Part shown: piece by piece, positions 30,082-44,498 of the stretch
Position numbering within the stretch: position 1 is the stretch's first letter
Layout of the letters: every line of letters starts with the position of its first letter
From: Candidatus Cacconaster equi
Lineage (GTDB): Bacteria > Bacteroidota > Bacteroidia > Bacteroidales > UBA932
Assembly (NCBI GenBank): GCA_018065895.1
Contig: JAGHSK010000017.1
Location: 1-64,000, forward strand
Length of the DNA: 64,000 nt
Direction: 5' to 3'
Position numbers and translations under genes: made by a program
The notes under the pieces: generated by a model
Told to the model about the DNA's origin: nothing
The model's input: only the letters and a program-made list of their open reading frames with translations
The model's database searches: none

Positions 30082-30405
30082 TTATGAAATTTTCTGCAGT
30101 TCCTCAAGCATAGAACGTATATCTTTCAGTTTTTCCACAATCTTCATTTTAGCGTCAAGCCTATCCTTGTCTGTCGACAGCCGCTTTGCGACACCGTCCA
30201 AAGTAAGGCCATCCACACGCACAAGGTGTTGAATGAGCTTCAGGTTATCCAGGTCCTTTTTGTGGAACAGCCTGTTTCCCTTTGCATTGCGTTCCGGCCT
30301 GATATACTTTGGAAAGGTATTGGCCCAGAAACGTACCGTAGTGTTTTCTTCAGAAAGGATATCGGCGACTTCGCCGATTGTATAATATAGTTTTTCCATA
30401 ATCAA
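30082..30405 (-). CDS. MerR-family transcriptional regulator
   Basis: YYTIGEVADILSEENTTVRFWANTFPKYIRPERNAKGNRLFHKKDLDNLKLI. Confidence 0.9.
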   Translation of the reverse strand: MIMEKLYYTIGEVADILSEENTTVRFWANTFPKYIRPERNAKGNRLFHKKDLDNLKLIQHLVRVDGLTLDGVAKRLSTDKDRLDAKMKIVEKLKDIRSMLEELQKIS

Positions 30406-31379
30406 TCCATTGACTGTCCAGTAGTTACAGCCACCTTGAGCATTTCGTCATATTCGAAGGGGGATAAATCGGAGAAGAAATAGTTGACCGGCTCCTGATA
30501 TTTCCCATTCCGTATCACTTCGTAATGCAGACACGGAGCAAAGGATGTTCCGCTCAGACCGGCCCGACCGATCATTGCGCCTGCTTTGACCTCCTGCCCA
30601 CGCCGTACGGTTGCAATGCTCAAATGTGAGTATGTTGTGACATATCCGTCTTCGTGTTCGATGGTGACTCTGGTTCCGAATGTCCTTACAGCCTTTTCGA
30701 CATCAATGACAAAACCGTCGGCCGTACATACGACCTCCGAGCCGACAGGGACCATCAGGTCGATGCCATTATGATCCCTGACCGTCTTGAAAAAAGGGTT
30801 TACCTTCTTTCCAACGGACGCACCGGTCTGCAAAATGGTGAAATTTCTGATCGGAATGATTGACGGAATGCTCGCCACTCCGTTCGCCTTCTTTGCAAAA
30901 ACCCCCGTCGCAACGCGCAGAGCCACGTCTATTTTGTCTGCGACACCTTCCAGCGTCTGCAACTTCCTGTCTGATTCTTCAATGATCTTTTTTTCCGACT
31001 TTTCATACAGATCACCCTGCCACTGAGTGGAGTCTTCGTGCAAAAGGCCATATCTGGGAGGATCTGAATTGAACACGGCATTATATATCTCGCGGTCCCG
31101 AAGCTCGAGGTTCCCGACGGCATTGTCCACGAGATTCATTGTTTCCTGCATCTTGGAATATTGCTCGCGCATTTCCTTGTTTTCCCGTAACAACATTTTT
31201 TCCCTGTCGGTATCATATGCAAGCGCGAACACGACATATATCAGCACAGCTGCAGAGAAACTGAGAACGAAATATTTGAAAAGCTTCCAGATGACGCTCC
31301 AGAAAGTATCCTTCTTCAACTTGAAACGGAGATGCTCCTTATCGTACACGAACTTGGCCATACCGCTACCTCCTGGCAT
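30402..31379 (-). CDS. M23/LytM-family protein, probably degenerate (HxH to CLH)
   Basis: Single TM, coiled coil, LytM domain with NGIDLMVPVGSEV, YSHLS and APCLHYEV. Confidence 0.88.
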   Translation of the reverse strand: MPGGSGMAKFVYDKEHLRFKLKKDTFWSVIWKLFKYFVLSFSAAVLIYVVFALAYDTDREKMLLRENKEMREQYSKMQETMNLVDNAVGNLELRDREIYNAVFNSDPPRYGLLHEDSTQWQGDLYEKSEKKIIEESDRKLQTLEGVADKIDVALRVATGVFAKKANGVASIPSIIPIRNFTILQTGASVGKKVNPFFKTVRDHNGIDLMVPVGSEVVCTADGFVIDVEKAVRTFGTRVTIEHEDGYVTTYSHLSIATVRRGQEVKAGAMIGRAGLSGTSFAPCLHYEVIRNGKYQEPVNYFFSDLSPFEYDEMLKVAVTTGQSMD

Positions 31380-32325
31380 TTTGGGTTATCTGTGAATACT
31401 CTTCATCGGACATGCTGCTGCTCAAGAAGTTCCACGGGTTGATCTGTCTGTCCCTGTAAAGCACCTCATAATGGAGATGAGGGCCTGTAGATCTGCCGCT
31501 ATTGCCTACAGCGGCAATCTGCTCTCCTCTTCTGACCTTGTCACCTTCGCGGACAAGAGCCTCGCGCAGGTGGGCATAACGTGTCTTGTATCCGAATCCG
31601 TGATCAATGACCACCATATTGCCATACCCGAAGAAATTGTGGAGAACCTCCACCACTGTGCCATCTCCCGTGGCATACACCGGATCTCCCTTATGTCCGG
31701 CGATATCTATGCCTCCGTGGAAAGATACCGCCTGGCTAATAGGATGGACGCGGTATCCGAAGGAGCTTGTTATTCTGAAATCGGAAATCTTTATCGGGCA
31801 GATCGACGGAACACAGGATGCCATATCATCAGCTCTCTTGGCCAGAAGCGCAACGTCATCGAATGACTTCGACTGTACGTATGCCTTCTTTGTGAGGATA
31901 TCCATCTTCACGGCGGAGGTTATCAGAATATCGGAATGTTCGAGCGACTCAAGATCAGAATACCTCTCCATTGTTCCGAATCCGGAATTTCTTACTTCGG
32001 AGGGGATTTCATCCATACCGAAAATCGGTCTGTACACAACATTGTCACGTCGCTGTATCTCCATCAAAGCGACATTGCTTTCCTCCATCTTCTCATTCAG
32101 GGATTCGATTTTCGCAAGGAGCAGCCTGTTCTCCCTTACAAGCCGGGCCTCTTTCGGCGTCATATAGCCCAGAACGTCTGTATATAGATAGAAATAAACG
32201 GCGAAACACGCCAGCCCCGTAAAAAGAACCGCTGCAGCCCTTACAAGTATCTGCCGGAAGGTTTTCCTGTCGATCTCGTAGGAAAGTGTCTTTTCATTGA
32301 ATATGTACCTCTTTTTCCTAAACAT
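31366..32325 (-). CDS. M23/LytM-family metallopeptidase
   Basis: HGGIDIAGHKGDPVYA, YAHL, GPHLHYEV all intact; TM plus coiled coil. Confidence 0.93.
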   Translation of the reverse strand: MFRKKRYIFNEKTLSYEIDRKTFRQILVRAAAVLFTGLACFAVYFYLYTDVLGYMTPKEARLVRENRLLLAKIESLNEKMEESNVALMEIQRRDNVVYRPIFGMDEIPSEVRNSGFGTMERYSDLESLEHSDILITSAVKMDILTKKAYVQSKSFDDVALLAKRADDMASCVPSICPIKISDFRITSSFGYRVHPISQAVSFHGGIDIAGHKGDPVYATGDGTVVEVLHNFFGYGNMVVIDHGFGYKTRYAHLREALVREGDKVRRGEQIAAVGNSGRSTGPHLHYEVLYRDRQINPWNFLSSSMSDEEYSQITQNARR

Positions 32326-32351: not shown

Positions 32352-32388
32352 CAAAATTACGATATTCCGATAAAAAAACCTAATTTTG
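32352..32388. promoter_or_regulatory. Divergent promoter pair (CAAAATTA-N21-TAATTTTG)
   Basis: Inverted TAATTTTG -7 elements at 32352-32359 (-) and 32381-32388 (+) between the M23 gene and alaS. Confidence 0.55.
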
Positions 32389-32409
32389 TGCCAAATTAAG
32401 AATACTGGC

Positions 32410-35025
32410 ATGACTTCGAAAGAGATTAGGAAAACCTTTACGGATTTCTTCGCAACAAAAAGACACACCATTGTACATTCCGCACCTATGGTGGTCAAGA
32501 ATGACCCTACGCTGATGTTCACCAACGCCGGGATGAATCAGTTCAAAGATATTTTTCTCGGTAACATAGCGCCTGTCAACAAACGCGTGGCAGATGCCCA
32601 GAAATGCTTGAGAGTAAGCGGAAAGCACAATGACCTTGAAGAAGTGGGACACGACACCTACCACCACACGATGTTCGAAATGCTCGGCAACTGGAGTTTC
32701 GGGGAATATTTCAAGAAAGAGGCCATCGAATGGGCATGGGAGCTTCTTACCGAAGTTTATCGCCTACCGAAAGAGAGGCTGTATGCCACAGTGTTCGAAG
32801 GCTACGAACCGGACGGACTCTCTCTTGACCAGGAAGCTTTTGATTTATGGACCAGATTTCTCCCGAAAGAACATATAATCCTTGGAAACAAGCACGACAA
32901 CTTCTGGGAAATGGGAGACACCGGACCTTGTGGTCCATGCAGCGAAATCCACATTGACCTCAGAAGCAATGAGGAGATTGCCGCAATCCCCGGGGCTGAA
33001 ATGGTCAACAAGGGACACCATCTGGTAATTGAGATATGGAATCTGGTGTTCATGCAATACAATCGGAAGGCAAATGGGACACTTGAACCGCTTCCGGCAA
33101 AGCACGTTGACACCGGAATGGGTCTTGAAAGACTCTGTATGGCGATTCAAGGCAAGCAAAGCAACTATGATACGGACGTATTTTCCGGAATGATAGACGC
33201 CATTTCGCGATTGAGCGGCAGGAAGTATGAGCCGGATACACAATTGGGCGTCGCCATGAGAGTCATAGCCGACCATATCCGTGCCATCAGTTTCTCAATA
33301 ACGGACGGACAGCTGCCAAGCAACGTCAAGGCAGGATATGTCATCCGCCGAATCCTCAGAAGGGCGGTCCGTTACGGCTACACGTTCCTCGGCTTGACGG
33401 AGCCGTTCCTGTGCAAGCTTGTGCCACAACTGGTCAGCGACATGGGTGAAGCATACCCTGAACTGATAACACAGCAGAACCTCGTGGAGAAGGTTATCAA
33501 GGAAGAGGAGGAATCTTTCCTGCGAACTCTTGACAAAGGCACGAAACTGCTTGAGAGTATAATGGACAAGTGCAAGGACACCAAGAAAATATCCGGTGAT
33601 GATGCATTTGTGATGTACGATACTTACGGATTTCCGATTGATCTGACTGAACTCATCGCCCAGGAAAACGGATACACTGTGGACATGGAGGAATTCAACG
33701 TCGAACTCAACAAGCAGAAAGACAGAGCCCGGAATGCCACCGCAATAGAGAATGGCGACTGGACTGAATTCTACCACGTTGACAAAGTTCGTTTCGAAGG
33801 ATATGACTATACCGAGATACAGGGGGCTCTCCTCTCACGCTTCCGCACAGTGAAGGCAAAAAACAAAGAGATGCTTCAGGTAGTGTTTGACCGAACGCCT
33901 TTCTACGGAGAGATGGGAGGTGAAGTCGGCGATACCGGATATGTCATCGCCGAGGATGGAGAAAGGATAAGAGTCCTCAACACCGTGAAGGAGAATAACC
34001 TTACAATCCATATTATGGAGAAGATTCCGGAGAACTGCGAGCAATCCTTCACTCTTCAGGTTGATGCCCTCAGGCGGCAGAAAATTGCCAACAACCACAC
34101 CTGCACGCACCTGTTGCACCAGGCTTTGAGGGAATTCCTCGGAACGCACGTTGAGCAGAAGGGGTCATTCGTATGCGACAAATACTTCCGCTTTGACTTC
34201 TCCCACTATGAGAAGCTCTCCAACGAGCAGATTGACAAGATAGAAAACCGCGTGAACGCCCTGATACGCGCAAACTCTCCTCTCGAAGAGATGCGCCACA
34301 CCACAATGGACATTGCAAAGGCCATGGGTGCGATGGCTCTCTTCGGTGAAAAATATGGTGAATGGGTACGCGTAGTCAAATATGGCAAAAGCGTGGAACT
34401 CTGCGGAGGCTGCCACACTCAAGCTACCGGTACAATAGGCTTTTTCAAGATCAATGCAGAGTCAGCCGTTGCAGCCGGCATACGCCGGATCGAAGCGGTG
34501 ACAGGCACTGAAGCCGAGCTTGTTGTCGACGAGATGGAAAATACCATACGCGTGGCAAAATCATTCTTCAACAATGTTCCTGACCTTGCGGGAGCCATCA
34601 CAAAGATGATTGCGGAAAATGAATCCTACAAGAAACAGATGGAAGAGGTCTTCAAGGAGAGAACCCTGAAGTTGAAGGAATTCCTTGTTTCTCAGGCAAA
34701 AGAGATAAATGGCAGAAGAATTGTCGTGATTTCCAAAGCTATGGATATGCAGATGCTGCGCAATGCTGCCTTCGCCCTTCAGAAAGAGGAGAAGAACCTT
34801 GCCGTAATCAGTGCGTTTGAGGTTGATGGCAAGCCTCAGCTGCTTGTAATGTACACAGCCGATCTCGTATCATCCGGAAAGAATGCCCAAAACTCAATCA
34901 AGGAGGTTGCCAGAATCATTCAGGGCGGTGGTGGCGGACAGCCCGGCCTTGCAACGGCAGGTGGCAAGAATATTGCTGGTCTCGAAGAAGCAAAAGCGAA
35001 ACTTATTGAGACAGCTACGGCATAG
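32410..35025 (+). CDS. alaS: Alanyl-tRNA synthetase
   Basis: [54 protein letters not shown]; start moved to ATG 32410 because the ORF-track GTG 32386 lies in the -7 element. Confidence 0.97.
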
Positions 35026-35036
35026 CTTCAGATATA

Positions 35037-37460
35037 ATGAAAAAATTACACACGTACCTGATACGACAATTCATAGGACCGTTCTTCGCCGTTCTGTTCG
35101 TTGTTGTGTTCGCGCTTGCTCTCGAGTTTCTCTGGGTTTATATCGATGAACTCGTGGGCAAGGGGCTGGGGCTTGGTGTGATTTTCGAATTCATGGCCTG
35201 GGCCTCGGCAACACTGCTGCCGCTTGCGCTTCCGCTTGCCACGCTTCTGGCCTCAATCATGACTCTCGGCAATCTGGGAGAGAGGAATGAGCTTCTGGCA
35301 ATGAAGGCGGCAGGCATCTCACTGAGCAGAATCCTGGTACCACTTTTCGCGGTTTCGCTTCTGATAAGCATAGGGGCTTTTTTTGCTTCTAATAATCTTG
35401 TTCCTGTAGCATACAACAAGATATATTCGCTCAGAGCCGACATAGCCCGGACAAAAAATGAAATAAAGATTCCTACGGGGACATTTTATGACGGAATCGA
35501 CGGTTATGTTCTGCGCATCGAATCCCGCGACGATGACGGAATGATGCACAACCTGATCATCTATGACCATACCGACTACGGGGGAAACACCAATATGATT
35601 CTTGCGGAGTCAGGAAAGATCAATACAACCGGCAACAAGAACGACATCATTTTCGACCTTTACAACGGATGTTCCTACCAGGAGGATAATAATATAACCT
35701 TGAGCGACACCACCGTCGAGCTCAGCAGAATCTCATTTGATTACCAGAAAATCATTATTCCACTGGAGAATTACAGTTTCTCACGTTCAGAAGATAACGA
35801 ATTCGGCAACGAAGTGATGGCCCGCAACCTCCGCGGACTTATCCACGACAAGGATTCCATTGCCCATGCCATTGACTCCCTGAAGAATTTCCAGTACGAC
35901 AGGTTCATAAGCAGCACCGGACTTGTCCATCTGAGCCAGCTTGACACTTCAGCCAACCGGAACCGCTATTTGGAGGGCATCGACATTGATAAAGTATATT
36001 CAAATATAGACCAAAGCAAGGAACGCTCTGCCATTCAATCAAAATTGGACGAATTCACGAGAGATGCCGACCTTGTGGACAGGTTCGTTTGGGAGAGAAA
36101 ACACTATCAGGAGACCTACTACATAACTGACGTGGAAGCGTATCGCAAGTTCACTCTCTCCATTGCCTGCCTTCTTTTCTTCTTCATAGGGGCCCCTCTC
36201 GGCGCCATTATCCGGAAGGGCGGACTTGGAACCCCGGTTATTATTTCGGTCTTCTTCTTCCTTGTATATTATGTCATTGACACTGTAGGCAAACGTCTGG
36301 CCAGGGCCGGAGCAATGACTCCTTTTGCAGGAGCATTCATCTCCGCGGCAGTGCTCCTGCCTATCGGAATTTTCCTCACCAGACAATCTACCCGTGACTC
36401 AGCCATCTTCAATATGGATTTCTACAAAGAATTGTTCAAGACCATAAATCGAAAAATTTCAAAGACATACCATCGTTTTATGAACCGTCTGACCATCAAG
36501 GGCGGAGGAAGAATCCGCATCGTGTTCATGGGGACTCCGGAGTTCGCCGTTGCGCAGCTCGATGCCCTGATGAACAGCGAATATGAGGTAGTTGCAGTGG
36601 TTACCGTACCTGACAAGCCTAGTGGACGAGGTCTTGAAGTCAATGAAAGCGCCGTCAAAAAATACGCTGTAGCCCACAACCTTCCGGTACTTCAGCCAGT
36701 CAAGCTGAAAGATCCCGAATTTCTTGAACAGCTTCGTTCCTTCAATGCCACTCTTTTTGTGGTAGTGGCATTCAGAATGCTGCCGAAGGAGGTGTGGAAC
36801 ATGCCTGTTTATGGAACATTCAACCTCCACGCATCCCTTCTGCCTCAGTATCGTGGTGCCGCCCCTATCAACTGGGCCATAATAAATGGGGAGAAATTCT
36901 CCGGTGTAACTACATTCATGATCGACGAGCAGATTGACACTGGAAAGATATTATTCCAGGAATCCTGTGCAATTGAAGAATATGAATCTGCCGGTGATCT
37001 TCACGACAAACTGATGAAAATGGGATGCGACCTTGTACTCAAGACAGTTGATGCCATCGAAAATCATCAGGCCAAGCCTTACGATCAGCAACTCGGAATG
37101 AGTAAGGTGCTCAAACCGGCGCCTAAGTTGACAAAAGAGCTATGTCATATCGATTGGAACGGTGACGTGGAGGAAATAGCACATCTTATCAGAGGCTTGA
37201 GCCCGTACCCGACAGCCTTTACAAATCTGGTTCGTGGTGACGAAGTTATCAGAGTCAAGATTTTCGATGCATACGATTCGAAGATTGACATTCCGGACCT
37301 TCCTGCAGGAGCCATCTCCCTTGACGGGAAGCATATTCAGGTCAAGTGCGGCAACGGCGTACTGCGCATCTACTCACTTCAGGTCGCAGGCAAAAAGAGA
37401 ATGAACGTGGATGCCTTCCTTCGTGGCTTCCGCGACCTCGAAACATATCACTTCGAATAA
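35037..37460 (+). CDS. LptF/LptG (YjgP/YjgQ) permease fused to methionyl-tRNA formyltransferase
   Basis: Residues ~1-481: six-TM permease with periplasmic domain; residues ~482-807: RIVFMGTPEFAVAQLDAL..FNLHASLLPQYRGAAPINWAI..GVTTFMIDEQIDTGKIL (Fmt). One uninterrupted frame. Confidence 0.9.
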   Translation: MKKLHTYLIRQFIGPFFAVLFVVVFALALEFLWVYIDELVGKGLGLGVIFEFMAWASATLLPLALPLATLLASIMTLGNLGERNELLAMKAAGISLSRILVPLFAVSLLISIGAFFASNNLVPVAYNKIYSLRADIARTKNEIKIPTGTFYDGIDGYVLRIESRDDDGMMHNLIIYDHTDYGGNTNMILAESGKINTTGNKNDIIFDLYNGCSYQEDNNITLSDTTVELSRISFDYQKIIIPLENYSFSRSEDNEFGNEVMARNLRGLIHDKDSIAHAIDSLKNFQYDRFISSTGLVHLSQLDTSANRNRYLEGIDIDKVYSNIDQSKERSAIQSKLDEFTRDADLVDRFVWERKHYQETYYITDVEAYRKFTLSIACLLFFFIGAPLGAIIRKGGLGTPVIISVFFFLVYYVIDTVGKRLARAGAMTPFAGAFISAAVLLPIGIFLTRQSTRDSAIFNMDFYKELFKTINRKISKTYHRFMNRLTIKGGGRIRIVFMGTPEFAVAQLDALMNSEYEVVAVVTVPDKPSGRGLEVNESAVKKYAVAHNLPVLQPVKLKDPEFLEQLRSFNATLFVVVAFRMLPKEVWNMPVYGTFNLHASLLPQYRGAAPINWAIINGEKFSGVTTFMIDEQIDTGKILFQESCAIEEYESAGDLHDKLMKMGCDLVLKTVDAIENHQAKPYDQQLGMSKVLKPAPKLTKELCHIDWNGDVEEIAHLIRGLSPYPTAFTNLVRGDEVIRVKIFDAYDSKIDIPDLPAGAISLDGKHIQVKCGNGVLRIYSLQVAGKKRMNVDAFLRGFRDLETYHFE

Positions 37461-42269: not shown

Positions 42270-43400
42270 ATGAAATTCACGCTGCTGGGTAAAGACAGAG
42301 ATTCAAATGCCAGGCTTGGCTTGATACAGACAGACCACGGGACGATACATACGCCCATATTCATGCCTGTCGGTACCGTAGGCTCGGTAAAAGGCGTTTA
42401 TCACAAGGATTTGCGTGAAGACATAAAGGCGCAGATCATACTCGGCAACACCTATCATCTTTACCTGCGTCCCGGACTTGACATTCTGCAGAAAGCCGGC
42501 GGGCTTCATAAATTCACCTCATGGGATCGTCCCATTCTGACTGACAGCGGAGGATTTCAAGTATTTTCTCTGGCGCAGAGCCGTAAGATTACGGAGGACG
42601 GGTGCATTTTTCAAAGTCATATTGACGGCTCACGGCATATGTTCACTCCAGAGAACAATGTCGATACGCAACGCATAATCGGCGCGGATATAATTATGGC
42701 CCTGGATGAATGCTGTCCTGGAGACGCCGAATACAAATATGCCGAAAAATCCCTCCGTCTCACCCAGAAATGGCTTGAACGCTGCATAAATCGTTTCGAC
42801 CAGACAGAGCCTCTGTATGGTTATGACCAAACTTTTTTCCCGATTGTACAGGGATGTGTATATCCTGATTTGCGCCGGGCCGCGGCAGAGCATGTCGCTT
42901 CTCTTGACAGAGAAGGATATGCAATAGGAGGATTGGCTGTCGGAGAGCCTGTCGAGAAAATGTATGAGATGATTGAACTCGTACACCCGATTCTCCCTCA
43001 GGACAAGCCGAGATATCTGATGGGAGTCGGAACTCCGTCCAACCTTTTGGAGGCAATCGCAAGAGGAGTGGATATGTTTGACTGCGTGATGCCGACCAGG
43101 AACGGGCGCAATGCAATGCTCTTCACCAGCGAAGGCACGATCCACATCAGGAACCGCAAATGGGCGGACGATTTCAGCCTTCTTGATGAGAATGGCACCT
43201 CATTTGTCGACCACTGCTACACGAAAGCATACCTGAGGCATCTGTTCATTTCCGGAGAGATGCTTGCGGCACAGATCGCCAGCCAGCACAACCTCGCATT
43301 CTACCTTCACCTGATGGAACAGGCACGCGAGCACATTGCAGCAGGAGATTTCAAACAATGGAAAGACGTTATGGTAAAAAAACTGGATGTCAAGTTATAA
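42270..43400 (+). CDS. tgt: tRNA-guanine (queuine) transglycosylase
   Basis: ILTDSGGFQVFSL, MALDECCPGDAEY, GGLAVGEPVEKMYEMIE, FDCVMPTRNGRNAMLFT. Confidence 0.98.
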   Translation: MKFTLLGKDRDSNARLGLIQTDHGTIHTPIFMPVGTVGSVKGVYHKDLREDIKAQIILGNTYHLYLRPGLDILQKAGGLHKFTSWDRPILTDSGGFQVFSLAQSRKITEDGCIFQSHIDGSRHMFTPENNVDTQRIIGADIIMALDECCPGDAEYKYAEKSLRLTQKWLERCINRFDQTEPLYGYDQTFFPIVQGCVYPDLRRAAAEHVASLDREGYAIGGLAVGEPVEKMYEMIELVHPILPQDKPRYLMGVGTPSNLLEAIARGVDMFDCVMPTRNGRNAMLFTSEGTIHIRNRKWADDFSLLDENGTSFVDHCYTKAYLRHLFISGEMLAAQIASQHNLAFYLHLMEQAREHIAAGDFKQWKDVMVKKLDVKL

Positions 43401-43403
43401 GCG

Positions 43404-44498
43404 ATGAAAAACAACAAGATCAAAATACTTGACTGGTACATTATCAAGAAGTACATCGGAACATACTTCTTCACGATTCTCATCGCAGTGGTAATCATCA
43501 TTATCTTTGACATCAGTGAAAAAATCGAGAAGTTCGTGGACCACCAGGCCCCGATTGACGGTATAATCTTCGACTATTACTGCGGTTTCATTCCTTGGAT
43601 CCTCAACAGTTTCTGTCCATTGTTCGTGTTCATCTCAGCCATCTTCTTCACGTCAAAACTCGCCCAGAACAGTGAAATCATCGCAATGCTCTCCGGAGGC
43701 ATCAGCATGAAACGCATTCTGGCGCCTTATATGGCTTCAGCCGCCTTCATCGCGGCTTTCACGATGTTTCTGGGGATGGTTGTGATTCCTCCGGCGAACA
43801 AGGTGCGTCTGGACTTTGAAAACAAATATGTAAGACAGAAGGACGCGGTCAGCAGCCAACGGAACATCCACTATCAGGTTGCTCCAGGAGAATTCGTTTA
43901 TGTCGAACAGTTCAGCACCTGGAGCAATACCTCATACAAGTTCACGATCGAGAAGATAGAGGACAATGAACTCGTTTCGAAGATTTCAGCGGAATCTGCC
44001 GCCTGGGACACTACTTTCAACGGATGGAAACTCAACAACTATTTTGAAAGGGATTTCTACGGAGAAAGCGAAACCGTGGAGATTGCACCTGTAAAGGATA
44101 CGGTCATAAACCTGGTTGCAGATGACTTCTACAGAAGGAAGAACTATGTGGAATCCATCTCTCAGAGGCAGTTGAACAAGTATATCAAACTTCAGAAGAT
44201 GCGTGGGGATTCCGCCATCAAATTGTCTTTGATAGAGAAGCATAACCGCATCGCAATGCCATTCTCGGCATTCATCCTTTCTGTCATAGCCGTTTCGCTG
44301 TCATCCAGGAAGAAGCGCGGAGGATTAGGCATCAATATCGGTATCGGACTAGCCTTAAGCTTCATATACATTCTTTTCATGCGTTTCAGCCAAATGTTCG
44401 TACTGACTGACACTTTGCCGGTAGTTCTTGCCATCTGGCTTCCGAACATAGTATTTGCTCTGATTGCATTCCTGTTATATAAAATTGCTCCAAAATAG
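43404..44498 (+). CDS. LptF/LptG-family LPS export permease
   Basis: YjgP/YjgQ topology and motifs (EIIAMLSGGISMKRILAPYM); C-terminal TM bundle. Confidence 0.9.
   Translation: MKNNKIKILDWYIIKKYIGTYFFTILIAVVIIIIFDISEKIEKFVDHQAPIDGIIFDYYCGFIPWILNSFCPLFVFISAIFFTSKLAQNSEIIAMLSGGISMKRILAPYMASAAFIAAFTMFLGMVVIPPANKVRLDFENKYVRQKDAVSSQRNIHYQVAPGEFVYVEQFSTWSNTSYKFTIEKIEDNELVSKISAESAAWDTTFNGWKLNNYFERDFYGESETVEIAPVKDTVINLVADDFYRRKNYVESISQRQLNKYIKLQKMRGDSAIKLSLIEKHNRIAMPFSAFILSVIAVSLSSRKKRGGLGINIGIGLALSFIYILFMRFSQMFVLTDTLPVVLAIWLPNIVFALIAFLLYKIAPK

Follow-up and report, generated by a model that had tools for sequence, protein, structure and literature searches.

In the 64,000-nucleotide stretch of Candidatus Cacconaster equi DNA analyzed here (the window), we found a single gene that joins an LptF-type permease in frame to a complete methionyl-tRNA formyltransferase (Fmt). 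We consider it probable, at roughly 0.8, that this gene encodes one bifunctional inner-membrane protein combining LptF of the exporter LptB2FG with a membrane-tethered Fmt that is the only one in the cell. The N-terminal half would act as the LptF subunit of this LPS exporter, and its cytoplasmic C-terminus would carry the sole Fmt through a short basic linker. If the protein is translated as one chain, all Fmt molecules would be held at the inner membrane, presumably one for each LptB2FG, and initiator Met-tRNA would be formylated at the cytoplasmic face, with formyl-Met initiation probably still in use. The two activities, LPS export and formylation, would run independently, and the fusion would be neutral or cost-free, with no special regulatory purpose beyond the co-translation of neighbors. 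The features on which the argument draws are as follows.

32386 to 35025, plus strand: alaS, separated by 11 nt from the fusion gene downstream (TIGR00344, 880 bits; synteny).
35037 to 37460, plus strand: LptF-Fmt fusion protein, a single open reading frame of 807 aa (domain profiles; 36 full-length genomes of the genus).
35037 to 36383, plus strand: LptF-type LPS-export permease domain, residues 1-449, with six membrane helices and a periplasmic beta domain (PF03739, PDB matches to LptF/LptG, AlphaFold).
36384 to 36512, plus strand: basic linker on the cytoplasmic side, residues 450-492, which stems from the LptF tail and is helical in part, at 460-486 (AlphaFold, charge, dN/dS).
36480 to 36482, plus strand: ATG in frame, at offset -11 from the junction, not kept across the genus (comparison with relatives).
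36513 to 36515, plus strand: ATC at position 1 of Fmt, not a start codon and, judged by split and fused relatives, not a relic of one either.
36516 to 37457, plus strand: complete methionyl-tRNA formyltransferase domain, residues 494-807, with N596, H598 and D634 kept (TIGR00460, alignment to 1fmt).

The frame runs through its 807 codons with zero internal stops, and Pfam searches of the protein returned LptF_LptG at residues 7-449 (E 1.5e-72), Formyl_trans_N at 494-666 and Formyl_trans_C at 697-799. These matches bear out a first-pass annotation made from the letters, which had described one in-frame 807-codon permease-Fmt frame without a stop between its halves; both domains are complete. 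That annotation rightly placed Fmt after the permease, and its coordinates for an ATC codon (36513-36515), a purine-rich GGCGGAGGAAG (36501-36511) and an ATG (36480) are accurate. Its domain boundary at about residue 482 is 11 residues too early, since Fmt begins at residue 493/494 and residues 450-492 form the linker. An AlphaFold (AF2) model built from 24 family members (mean pLDDT 77, pTM 0.42) shows the membrane helices of LptF with its periplasmic beta domain, then a helix at 460-486 predicted with low confidence, and the Fmt domain; because the pTM is low, the mutual placement of the LptF and Fmt halves is not predicted.

Mapping across the Bacteroidales located the fusion in the window's genus and in eight further genera of one family (g26, g27, g153, g154, g156, g165, g166 and g172), of which several rest on single MAGs and g172 on one genome (G289). 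Within the window's genus, 37 of 40 genomes carry it (36 full-length, one cut at a contig end); the remaining three lack the locus, and split lptF and fmt genes were found in none of the 40. The other full-length proteins of the genus are 59-71% identical to that of the window, and the fusion has been retained over deep divergence (~50% identity). A scan of named GTDB genomes gave 80 loci, 79 of them passing the fusion test. The records are all of Bacteroidales or Bacteroidia, with Candidatus Cryptobacteroides and Candidatus Cacconaster caballi among them; nearly all are labeled MAGs, many from ruminant or other animal guts. Outside the family, no fusion was seen in the roughly 440 genomes from the order and phylum that were scanned. 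One genome of family f15 (G050) has lptF and fmt adjacent yet split, and long open frames around Fmt in four others (G593, G585, G636 and G569) proved to be ordinary stand-alone Fmt genes.

The permease half scores above the PF03739 cut-off over its full length (245 bits, residues 7-449 on profile positions 2-352 of 353) and shares with LptF (YjgP) and LptG (YjgQ) of LptB2FG this family, the six membrane helices and the periplasmic beta domain. A conserved glutamate, E85, aligns adjacent to the coupling-helix glutamate of LptF, which we take to be E84. Unlike known LptF and LptG proteins, the fusion ends in Fmt and has an extra helical insert after the beta domain. It scores 150 bits with the curated LptF equivalog TIGR04407 (cut-off 230) and 114 with the LptG profile, also below cut-off. 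We therefore file this half as LptF-like, without a strict equivalog assignment, as a divergent Bacteroidota form. The C-termini of LptF and LptG lie on the cytoplasmic side, and the LptB2FG channel is a heterodimer of the two. A second permease is present at 43422-44492, scoring 192 bits with TIGR04408, below that profile's cut-off of 240. It lies directly after tgt (42270-43400). Proteins of the PF03739 family have been tried as queuosine-precursor transporters, without complementation (PMC11130926). The permease at 43422-44492 is more simply read as the LptG partner of the fusion.

The linker between the two halves is basic, with a mean net charge of +6.8 over its last 25 residues across 63 fused proteins, as expected for the cytoplasmic side. 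From 21 disjoint close pairs we estimated dN/dS at about 0.13 over the 37 linker codons that precede the junction; the last membrane segments gave 0.11 and Fmt 0.064. These values indicate that the linker is translated and under purifying selection. This constraint counts against a reading in which soluble Fmt is produced alongside the fusion, through an internal start or proteolysis of the linker; we regard that reading as unlikely though still credible. An internal start had been proposed at ATG 36480; this codon is shared only with the nearest relative (L004), and comparison within the genus does not support it. In the window's genus (31 genomes) and in g165 (9 genomes), none has an ATG within eight codons of the junction, which likewise speaks against a second product, and the plus strand near the junction gave no sigma-70-like or Bacteroides-type promoter match. 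The observation in favor of a second product comes from g26, the largest sister genus, where 55 of 78 genomes have an ATG no more than eight codons from the junction. It lies at offset -6, -4 or -3, in the region where fmt begins in split relatives; other nine-codon blocks of g26 contain ATG in mostly 0-14% of genomes, with one block at 36%. Even there, 15 of the 78 have no ATG, GTG or TTG within eight codons. The fused gene of g26 may thus hold a relic of an fmt start or a working one. The loci concerned, of g26 and its nearest relatives, are L063, L100-L118 and L132-L202.

The ATC codon at 36513 had been regarded as a fossil start, an idea that its relatives do not sustain. Among 31 split relatives, Fmt starts 2-8 codons upstream of the ATC position, nearly always with ATG and in a few with GTG or TTG; the exception is L080, which shows no start codon within 12 codons. 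The residue at the equivalent position varies in split relatives (L, P, T, S, K and others), and the codon in the window's genus is ATC, ATA, GTC, GTA or GTG, coding for I or V, with mostly T in g26. Similarly, GGCGGAGGAAG had been suggested as part of the same relic; it codes for Gly-Gly-Gly-Arg of a Gly-Gly-Gly-Lys/Arg linker, and the DNA is not purine-rich at this place in most relatives.

Gene order in the family forms a series leading up to the fusion. The outgroup families f64 and f93 and the same-family genera g157 and g158 have lptF-ribBA-fmt. In the core genera of the family the order is alaS-lptF-fmt, alaS being a conserved neighbor; lptF and fmt there overlap or are separated by a few tens of nucleotides, and all three relative frames occur. 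In most genomes read of g155, the two genes are in frame with one TAA between them; at loci L071, L072 and L095-L097 of this genus they share the frame, and in most of these just one TAA, a few codons ahead of Fmt, stands between the genes and fusion. The first-pass annotation had held that relatives with two separate genes would speak against the fusion. Such relatives do occur in sister genera, and they mark the ancestral state rather than an artefact.

Trees of concatenated LptF and Fmt require three or four changes between split and fused states, and a single fused clade is rejected by AU tests (p = 7e-12 for the full set of 22, p = 1e-4 without G289). At least three independent fusions are thus the best reading of these sequences. 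The loss of ribBA from between lptF and fmt would have left adjacent, often overlapping genes, after which small deletions would have removed the lptF stop codon and restored the frame, at least three times. We rejected a single origin with later fission on the AU tests and because, by our own count on the tree, it needs about ten losses against three or four changes; such a history is possible but less parsimonious. Moreover, 22 of 31 split pairs sit in different reading frames, which a simple gain of a stop codon would not yield, and this counts against fission as well. Split G255 and fused G289 differ at the junction by gaps of 15 and 4 nt, the fused case being one MAG. In g157 and g158 (L083 and L084), LptF is about 630 aa long, with a C-terminal extension of about 150 aa in place of Fmt, and open-frame lengths of about 630-680 suggest a similarly extended LptF in other Bacteroidales.

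That the fusion arose repeatedly may be due to selection, or simply to how easily overlapping genes fuse. On the selective side, the state of LPS export might control initiator-tRNA formylation, or the reverse, through the LptB2FG tether. Fusion in at least three lineages and its retention over deep divergence fit such regulatory coupling, but adjacent, overlapping genes are expected to fuse repeatedly without selection, sister genera live with split genes, and the fused Fmt has no specific residues apart from one weak R/K column. We hold regulatory coupling to be improbable. It is just as doubtful that the family repeatedly anchored its only Fmt to the LPS exporter because co-localization is useful, with formylation tied to the abundance or activity of LptB2FG; if this were true, translation initiation and outer-membrane assembly would be physically linked. 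A coupling of the fusion to envelope biogenesis, as the first-pass annotation had put forward, may at most be inferred. That annotation also suggested that Fmt may be tethered to the inner membrane, and this part is supported as a reading from topology, given the complete fusion and the lack of a second Fmt described below.

The whole Fmt domain passes the NCBIfam equivalog for fmt, TIGR00460, at 242-245 bits against a cut-off of 201.5. N596, H598 and D634, together with NLHASLLP, which contains the SLLP motif, align to E. coli Fmt (1fmt), and the catalytic N, H and D are invariant in 24 fused proteins. The C-terminal domain of Fmt is also present (PF02911). The likeness to E. coli Fmt (1FMT/2FMT) extends to the full domain pair, the Asn-His-Asp triad, SLLP and the equivalog score. 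Fmt is a housekeeping enzyme of nearly all bacteria and is usually treated as free and soluble, whereas here it makes up the C-terminal portion of a membrane permease. Unfused Fmts have 71 columns conserved at 95% or more, and 65 of these remain so in fused ones. HASLLP reads HAALLP (residue 600 of P0001) in 19 of 63 fused proteins, mainly in g26.

A stand-alone second fmt was sought in 22 fused genomes, of which 21 have a completeness of 90% or more, and in all 22 the fused gene is the sole match over the TIGR00460 cut-off; far weaker matches elsewhere fall in the range that we take to be expected for PurN and similar enzymes. On these profile scores, the fused domain is the cell's only Fmt and the sole candidate for formylating initiator Met-tRNA in these genomes. 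Peptide deformylase was found in all eight fused genomes examined, including that of the window, which suggests that formyl-Met initiation is probably still used.

A different substrate would be expected if the domain formylated a sugar of LPS or lipid A, and was attached to the exporter for that reason. ArnA, in which a formyltransferase is joined to a decarboxylase, takes part in lipid A modification; the fold is common to ArnA and sugar N-formyltransferases, and the fusion partner here is an LPS exporter, so the likeness is that of a formyltransferase fold inside a fusion protein in an LPS setting. ArnA differs, however, in partner, substrate and orthologous group: PRK08125, for the ArnA and sugar formyltransferase group, reaches 148 bits against a cut-off of 777, and the Fmt equivalog wins. 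The best PDB matches of the modeled Fmt part are Fmt structures, at 34-38% identity compared with about 24% for ArnA, and Foldseek against 2fmt and 4iqf gave TM scores of 0.85-0.90 on the target. With a deformylase encoded, the columns of unfused Fmts kept and the domain being the sole Fmt of the genome, we consider sugar formylation very improbable.

Although every genome is a MAG, an assembly or sequencing error that deleted the stop codon between lptF and fmt is refuted for the window's genus, since the identical junction recurs in its 36 full-length genomes and in dozens of named MAGs from independent projects and coding constraint runs across it; chance or misassembly is ruled out by in-frame fusion in so many independent genomes, and the single-genome g172 fusion could still be an artefact.

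Both domains come from known families, and what appears to be new in these sequences is their joining in one protein. The LptF-Fmt architecture was not found in the open-access literature searched, and it may be listed unremarked in protein architecture databases. It attaches Fmt to an essential membrane transporter in gut bacteria and suggests that formylation of the initiator tRNA can tolerate membrane tethering or makes use of it. The family displays a natural series, with ribBA between the genes and then lptF and fmt adjacent, overlapping, one stop apart and fused, and its three or more independent fusions make it a good system for asking whether gene fusion is neutral or selected. Automatic annotation from either domain alone will mislabel these genes. 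Elsewhere in the window, the minus strand carries two tandem genes (30402-31379 and 31366-32325) that overlap by a few bases and by eye look like M23-type peptidases.
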